A stretch of DNA of 64,000 nucleotides from Halomonas chromatireducens (lineage in GTDB: Bacteria; Pseudomonadota; Gammaproteobacteria; Pseudomonadales; Halomonadaceae). Made by a program: the position numbers and the translations under genes. The stretch spans positions 3,299,678-3,363,677 of the forward strand of contig NZ_CP014226.1 of the NCBI RefSeq assembly GCF_001545155.1. The letters are read 5' to 3'. This document shows, piece by piece, positions 43,011 to 43,718 of this stretch. Each line of letters starts with the position of its first letter. Position 1 is the first letter of the stretch. The notes under the pieces were generated by a model. The model saw only the letters and a list, made by a program, of their open reading frames with translations. It had not been told where the DNA came from and did not search any database.

Positions 43011-43718
43011 ATGTCTTCCTATCTTCTCTCCATCGATCAGGGCACCACCAGCTCCAGGGCGATTCTTTTCGATCGTGATCTACGTCCTGTCGCTACCTCC
43101 CAGCAGGAACTCGCCCAGTCGTTTCCTGCAGATGGATGGGTTGAGCACGATCCGTCATCGATCTGGGAGTCGGTGCTTTTCATCTGCCGTGATGTGCTTA
43201 GAAAAGGCAATGTCAGGGCTGGTGATCTCGCTGGCGTTGGTATTACCAATCAGCGCGAATCCACGCTGGTCTGGGATCGCGCCACTGGTGAGCCAATCTA
43301 CCCGGTAATTGTCTGGCAGGACCGGCGGACCGTGCAGCAGTGCGAGAGCCTGAACGCTGCCGGCCACGCCGAGGATGTTCAGGCACGTACCGGGCTATTG
43401 ATCGATCCCTATTTTTCCGCCACCAAGCTGGCCTGGATTCTCGACGAAGTCCCCGGCGCACGTGAGCGCGCAGAGCGCGGTGAGCTGGCCTTCGGCACCA
43501 TTGATACCTTCCTGATCTGGCGGTTGACCGGTGGCAGGCAGCATCTCACCGATGCGACCAATGCGTCACGCACTCTGCTCTTCAATATCCATACCCAGGC
43601 GTGGGACGAAAGGCTGCTCGAACTGTTTGATATTCCCGCCGCATTGCTACCTGAAGTCACGTCTGGGAGCGCGACGTGCTGGCACCGGCCTTCGAGGAGC
43701 TCACGGGCATCAGCGTGA
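43011..43718 (+). pseudogene. glpK: Glycerol kinase GlpK, truncated after codon 216
   Basis: Codons 1-216 are a normal glycerol kinase N-terminus: [19 protein letters not shown] (phosphate-binding loop), [70 protein letters not shown], up to [10 protein letters not shown]. Full-length GlpK has about 500 residues and continues here with the second ATPase half; instead the frame runs 20 unrelated codons and stops. From about base 43658 the DNA belongs to another gene in a different frame. The catalytic domain is incomplete, so glycerol phosphorylation by this copy is lost. See the next entry for the other side of the junction. Confidence 0.9.

Follow-up and report, generated by a model that had tools for sequence, protein, structure and literature searches.

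Organization of the Locus

The window analysed here is a stretch of 64,000 nucleotides of the Halomonas chromatireducens chromosome (NZ_CP014226.1, positions 3,299,678 to 3,363,677). Going by the names attached to its nearest loci and proteins (Halomonas, Billgrantia), the salt-loving host belongs to the Halomonas group. The window carries the remnants of two glycerol genes, glpK and a glpV-type gene, joined to each other out of frame and followed by an intact glpD-type gene. The features, in window coordinates, are as follows.

42910-42919 and 42940-42949, + strand: two direct copies of AWCGAACATT, presumed GlpR operator half-sites (pattern search)
43011..43658, + strand: 5' part of glpK (codons 1-216), coding for the N-terminal kinase domain alone (Pfam/NCBIfam profiles and alignment of relatives)
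43658..43659, no strand: deletion junction, CA common to both parents in G066, G005 and G028 (junction views)
43658..45160, + strand: 3' part of the glpV-type glycerol-binding-protein gene, residues 80-579 (alignment to relatives)
45290..45317, + strand: terminator-like hairpin of 12 pairs with the tail TTTGTTTCCG, between the glpV remnant and glpD (consensus scan only)
45358..46998, + strand: intact glpD-type gene for an FAD glycerol-3-phosphate dehydrogenase, closing the ancestral operon (ORF listed from 45304)

The sequence is that of a native glpK through codon 216, at base 43658, and thereafter a different frame encodes residues 80-579 of a GlpV-type glycerol-binding protein. This agrees with the earlier note, which had read the locus as a kinase frame giving way to a binding-protein frame without a signal peptide; both alignments to relatives and domain profiles bear that reading out. 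The glpK frame crosses the junction and stops at 43716-43718, making an ORF of 235 aa from the ATG at 43011. It matches GlpK/FGGY_N only to about residue 220, has no FGGY_C domain by Pfam, and scores 319 bits against TIGR01311, for which the cut-off is 590. Taking a functional GlpK to be one with both FGGY_N and FGGY_C and a score above the NCBIfam cut-off, the product of this ORF is not one.

The binding-protein frame is open from 43655, being closed upstream by a TGA at 43652-43654 within glpK-derived sequence, and aligns at 96% to residues 79-579 of the full-length protein of G005. The ORF that matches the binding protein is listed from a GTG at 43676 to 45160 (494 aa). The remnant lacks the N-terminal 79 residues and hence the signal peptide. 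A protein 96% identical to this frame (P0123) is named by one source 'glycerol transport system substrate-binding protein', and the full-length G005 protein had no match among solved structures at E 0.001.

The two AWCGAACATT copies are recognisable, with small changes, in all eight of the aligned upstream regions, and in G005 the pair forms a direct repeat with a spacing of 30 nt. We presume that the pair at 42910..42949 represents GlpR operator half-sites of the operon promoter. At the other end of the remnants, the hairpin at 45290-45317 is strong and lies just 5' of glpD, inside what would be expected to be a single operon. The consensus scan returned five terminator-like hairpins in the region versus a mean of 1.9 in shuffled sequences. 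The hairpin may reflect attenuation of glpD, or a glpD with a promoter of its own. The operon GlpD (45358-46998) scores 256 bits against an NCBIfam glycerol-3-phosphate dehydrogenase cut-off of 360, whereas GlpD2, encoded at a second locus, passes at 763. Judged by its sequence, the operon GlpD is a divergent GlpD tied to the ABC operon.

The Ancestral Operon and the Missing Block

In relatives, the same site is occupied by an operon in the order glpK-ATPase-ATPase-permease-permease-DUF2160-glpV-glpD. It is intact in seven fetched loci from the same genus (G005, G028, G051, G008, G010, G032 and G066), and in G061 glpK and the binding protein lie at a fitting distance and strand, as far as positions tell. 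The parts of the G005 operon are recognised by Pfam as PF00005 twice, PF00528 twice, PF09928 and PF01547. Compared with these loci, the window is short by 5508 bases (G066 and G005) or 5504 bases (G028), and the missing block begins near codon 217 of glpK and reaches codon 79 of the binding-protein gene. If a GlpSTPQUV-type importer is defined as two ATPases, two permeases, a DUF2160 protein and an exported binding protein, then relatives such as G005 have the glycerol ABC importer and the window does not; all that is left of it is binding-protein residues 80-579.

When 4.4 kb of the missing block was searched against the strain's own genome, with 40 of 91 candidates scored, the ten matches obtained were 44-126 bp long, 70-83% identical and scattered round the chromosome. 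Since its matches are only that long, the block is gone rather than moved. Transposition or translocation was considered and rejected, there being no match above 126 bp elsewhere in the genome among the 40 of 91 candidates scored. We speak of an interior deletion when both flanks are colinear with one intact ancestral locus and the block between them is absent elsewhere, and this is the situation in the window. The two fragments line up with the two ends of a single operon in relatives, which excludes chance. The most economical history, and very probably the right one on the genomic comparison, is that a glycerol-uptake operon recently lost about 5.5 kb from its interior in one simple deletion. 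The earlier note had supposed one deletion within a glpK-transporter-glpV cluster and had proposed comparison with close relatives to recover the ancestral order. That comparison yields the order given above, and the intact cluster at the same site, together with the failure to find the block elsewhere, upholds the supposition.

The fusion appears to be confined to this strain among the genomes compared. The binding protein is present in 71 of 90 genomes of the genus, this one included. Of the other 70, 68 match through to the end starting no later than residue 12, and two (G035 and G043) give incomplete matches in fragmented assemblies; apart from these incomplete cases, a glpK-glpV fusion was not found in any of the 70. 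A protein search with the 235-aa frame (7999 candidates scored, length limit 411 aa) returned no near-identical entry, the best being 72% among the 120 listed of 7930. The corresponding search with the binding-protein frame (8000 candidates scored) gave best 120 matches listed at 560-592 aa, compared with 494 in the window, none of them truncated alike. The earlier note had held that the same fusion conserved in a relative would speak against its reading; none came to light in the genus genomes or the protein searches.

The Breakpoint

Views of the junction against G066, G005 and G028 place the switch of frame between 43657 and 43660. In these three relatives, the parental sequences differ on either side of a CA that they have in common. 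G010, which is more distant, has other bases on the glpK side of the breakpoint, and there CA is not common to both. The earlier note had suggested a microhomology around TCAC. The parents do not share TCAC, and the two bases that they do share in G066, G005 and G028 are within chance: at equal base frequencies, at least two shared bases are expected in 0.156 of junctions. Microhomology would call for more shared bases than chance supplies, and it is not supported, since 16% of random junctions show at least two.

Longer homologies are also absent from the breakpoints. No repeat of at least 16 nt pairs them in G005, and in G066 the ~60 bp around them have no word in common longer than 6 nt in direct or 7 nt in inverted orientation. 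A deletion driven by repeats or insertion sequences was rejected on that account in both genomes. G005 does contain an inverted pair of 19 nt at 84%, 5533 nt apart, but it lies about 600 bp away from either breakpoint without enclosing them. The deletion would then have arisen by replication slippage or by end-joining without useful homology.

The same observations bear on whether the junction was made by the assembler, with the 5.5 kb still present in the cell and merely skipped. Because no repeats pair the breakpoints, the assembler had nothing to collapse. The genome is a single contig of 3,973,651 bases, the size of a chromosome, and is 99.99% complete; the breakpoints share two bases only, with no repeat of 16 nt or more pairing them in G005; and no stretch of the block longer than 126 bp matches elsewhere. 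We therefore regard an assembly artefact as highly improbable.

Age of the Fragments

We counted a change as unique to the window when G005, G028 and G066 are alike at a site and the window is not. The glpK remnant (glpK') has 3 amino-acid-changing and 29 silent changes, the glpV remnant (glpV') has 4 and 27, and the intact glpD has 8 and 18. Neutral expectation is about 2.7-3.1 changing per silent change at a transition bias of 2, and 2.4-3.5 across the range of biases used. By the 95% upper bounds, at most 10-11% of the window branch can have been neutral for the two fragments, and neither is more relaxed than the intact glpD. No internal stop or frameshift was seen in the native part of either one. 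With so few amino-acid changes in either fragment, the event is recent on the scale used, an estimate that comes from one genome and assumes that recombination is absent. The deletion is known from one genome of the species, so that a clonal state, a laboratory-acquired state and a species trait are all compatible.

The lack of decay might instead be read as a sign of use. The truncated binding protein would be made in the cytoplasm from the GTG at 43676, for example to sense or buffer glycerol. From that GTG the frame stays open for 494 codons, a GGGAG (43665-43669) sits six bases ahead of it, and glpV' shows no decay. But the Shine-Dalgarno-like run is native interior glpV sequence, recency alone accounts for the absence of decay, and relatives were not found to have the truncated form, 68 of the 70 being complete and the other two incomplete in fragmented assemblies. 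We find such a functional reorganisation scarcely credible. On the deletion reading, both fragments would be dead, the kinase for want of its C-terminal domain and the binding protein because it could not be exported and has no permease, and the operon promoter would now read through the remnants into glpD. The fusion is an ordinary deletion pseudogene undergoing ordinary decay.

Silent changes are not evenly spread across the junction. Using three relatives, there are 29 in 215 codons of glpK' versus 27 in 499 of glpV' and 18 in 546 of glpD; using two relatives, the numbers are 56, 42 and 51. The greater density in glpK' leaves some room for different origins of the two sides. In that case the segment comprising glpV', glpD and sequence downstream would have been imported from a relative by homology-facilitated illegitimate recombination, with homology anchoring its right end and a non-homologous join within glpK at its left. 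Identity to G005 steps at the junction from 78% (41003-43659) to 90.5% (43658-48346), and the density of window-unique silent changes per codon in glpK' is 2.5-4x that in glpV' and glpD. At third positions, glpK' diverges from G066 by 0.276 and the three ORFs to its left by 0.212, 0.298 and 0.265 (one overlapping antisense ORF dropped); for the five genes from glpV' to 49946 the values are 0.148-0.171. There is also a mosaic-looking tract in the window at 50-61 kb. However, glpK seems less conserved than glpV altogether, and when divergence is scaled by that of G032 the two remnants are alike (0.276/0.488 = 0.57 for glpK', 0.160/0.303 = 0.53 for glpV'). The scaled drop falls at glpD (0.161/0.452 = 0.36) and not at the junction, third-position divergence is patchy along the window, its gene-to-gene scatter against G066 (0.045-0.347) covers the step, and a plain deletion needs no import. 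An imported right side is in our judgement very unlikely.

Positions 50001-61000 are 96-98% identical to G066 at the nucleotide level, and 95-98% to G005 from 51 kb, whereas identity to G066 in the 24-42 kb region is 83-93%. The 50001-61000 stretch carries a P-type metal ATPase and cobalamin genes (DBI_PRT, CobD_Cbib and CobS families) and, from its pattern of identity, looks like a recombined tract. Positions 8001-14000 have weak, out-of-order or no matches in the part of the G005 contig that was fetched and 70-90% identity in G028, which suggests gene content differing between close kin.

Repeated Loss of the In-Operon Kinase

Several kin, other species of the genus, have deleted the glpK at the head of the operon (L128 in G012, L129 in G037, L130-L133 and L137), with other breakpoints and with the promoter region and the ABC transporter kept. 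G012 retains codons 1 to about 41 together with a further piece, ~295-316 to 460-478, whose ends vary by the method used, with two TGA codons. G037 retains codons 1 to about 55. In G042, G030, G053 and G057 the promoter side and glpK codons 1 to ~13-18 are kept, and in G050 little beyond the promoter side. The ABC genes are near full length in the loci with glpK remnants, and all seven genomes with in-operon remnants have another full-length glpK. Only in the window did the deletion also remove the transporter.

A tree of 21 rows, built on the binding protein and GlpD together, joins the window to G028 (96/91), and the two fall within a four-row set with G005 and G066 (99/99), apart from G012 and G037. 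An intact/remnant label placed on this tree, with 11 of the 21 rows in no group because they have few or no glpK codons, needs three changes, two of which well-supported branches make unavoidable. The mean with shuffled labels is close to this, 2.7-2.8, and the label is not clustered. Separate losses are the simplest reading, because the breakpoints differ and the tree positions are scattered. The in-operon copy of glpK is repeatedly expendable in these kin, and such differently placed losses of one kinase copy make a small example of gene redundancy resolved several times. One could go further and suppose that selection has repeatedly favoured loss of the in-operon kinase, so that uptake is no longer coupled to phosphorylation, with the window as an extreme in which the importer was lost too. 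We think this unlikely; if it were true, glycerol freed from phosphorylation could, for example, serve as an osmolyte.

Remaining Glycerol Metabolism

The earlier note was right that this locus cannot make the kinase, since only FGGY_N is left, but its implication that glycerol phosphorylation is lost did not hold. A second locus (L141; G000:C1, 2.19 Mb) has an intact glpK, a DeoR/GlpR-type repressor and another glpD, each above its own NCBIfam cut-off, and the product of this glpK2 has both FGGY domains at 717 bits. The strain is not predicted to be unable to phosphorylate glycerol, because the second glpK is intact and stands beside glpR and glpD. A pattern like AWCGAACATT was not found in L141.

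No member of the MIP/GlpF family was found in the strain's genome by a search that, as a control, detected the family in 8 of 14 known genomes. A member is present in 21 of 90 genomes of the genus. To do without both the binding protein and a MIP channel is not unique, because 14 of the 19 genomes lacking the former also lack a match to the latter, 5 of those 14 being under 90% complete. Glycerol metabolism would then proceed through glpK2-glpR-glpD2, with entry by diffusion or an unrecognised carrier. Going by gene content, it is the glycerol ABC importer that is lost and not glycerol kinase, and we expect that the strain uses glycerol, perhaps poorly at low concentration.

The strain is in effect a clean natural knockout of the glycerol ABC importer, with glpK2-glpR-glpD2 retained and no GlpF recognised, and would reveal whether bacteria of the Halomonas type can do without a dedicated importer for glycerol. 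Of the papers listed, one, a Trichococcus study, brings Halomonas together with glycerol kinase, glycerol uptake and ABC transporter.

Comparison with Known Systems

Natural fusions of gene remnants left by short-homology deletions are a general class. The window resembles them in having two colinear parents, a missing block and an out-of-frame join, and differs in that only two bases are shared, with no microhomology signature.

The operon of the kin resembles the glp operon of Rhizobium leguminosarum bv. viciae VF39, where, in the available portion of the source, glpD and glpK flank the glpSTPQUV ABC genes and the regulator is glpR (PMC7912956). In kin, too, there are a glpK, two ATPases, two permeases, a DUF2160 protein, a binding protein and a glpD. 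Unlike the Rhizobium arrangement, as far as that portion describes it, glpK comes first and glpD last in the kin, and in the window the transporter is gone.

By the same partial account, Cupriavidus metallidurans CH34 has the same six-part transporter, Rmet_2229-2234, and likewise a second glpK/glpD locus elsewhere, but its glpK and glpD are near the transporter operon and not in it, unlike in the kin (PMC7912956). A C. metallidurans mutant without this homologous transporter is reported still to use glycerol, contrary to Rhizobium leguminosarum (PMC7912956), and the like is expected of the present strain. The Cupriavidus case, so described, is an engineered deletion of the transporter, whereas that of the window is a natural fusion.
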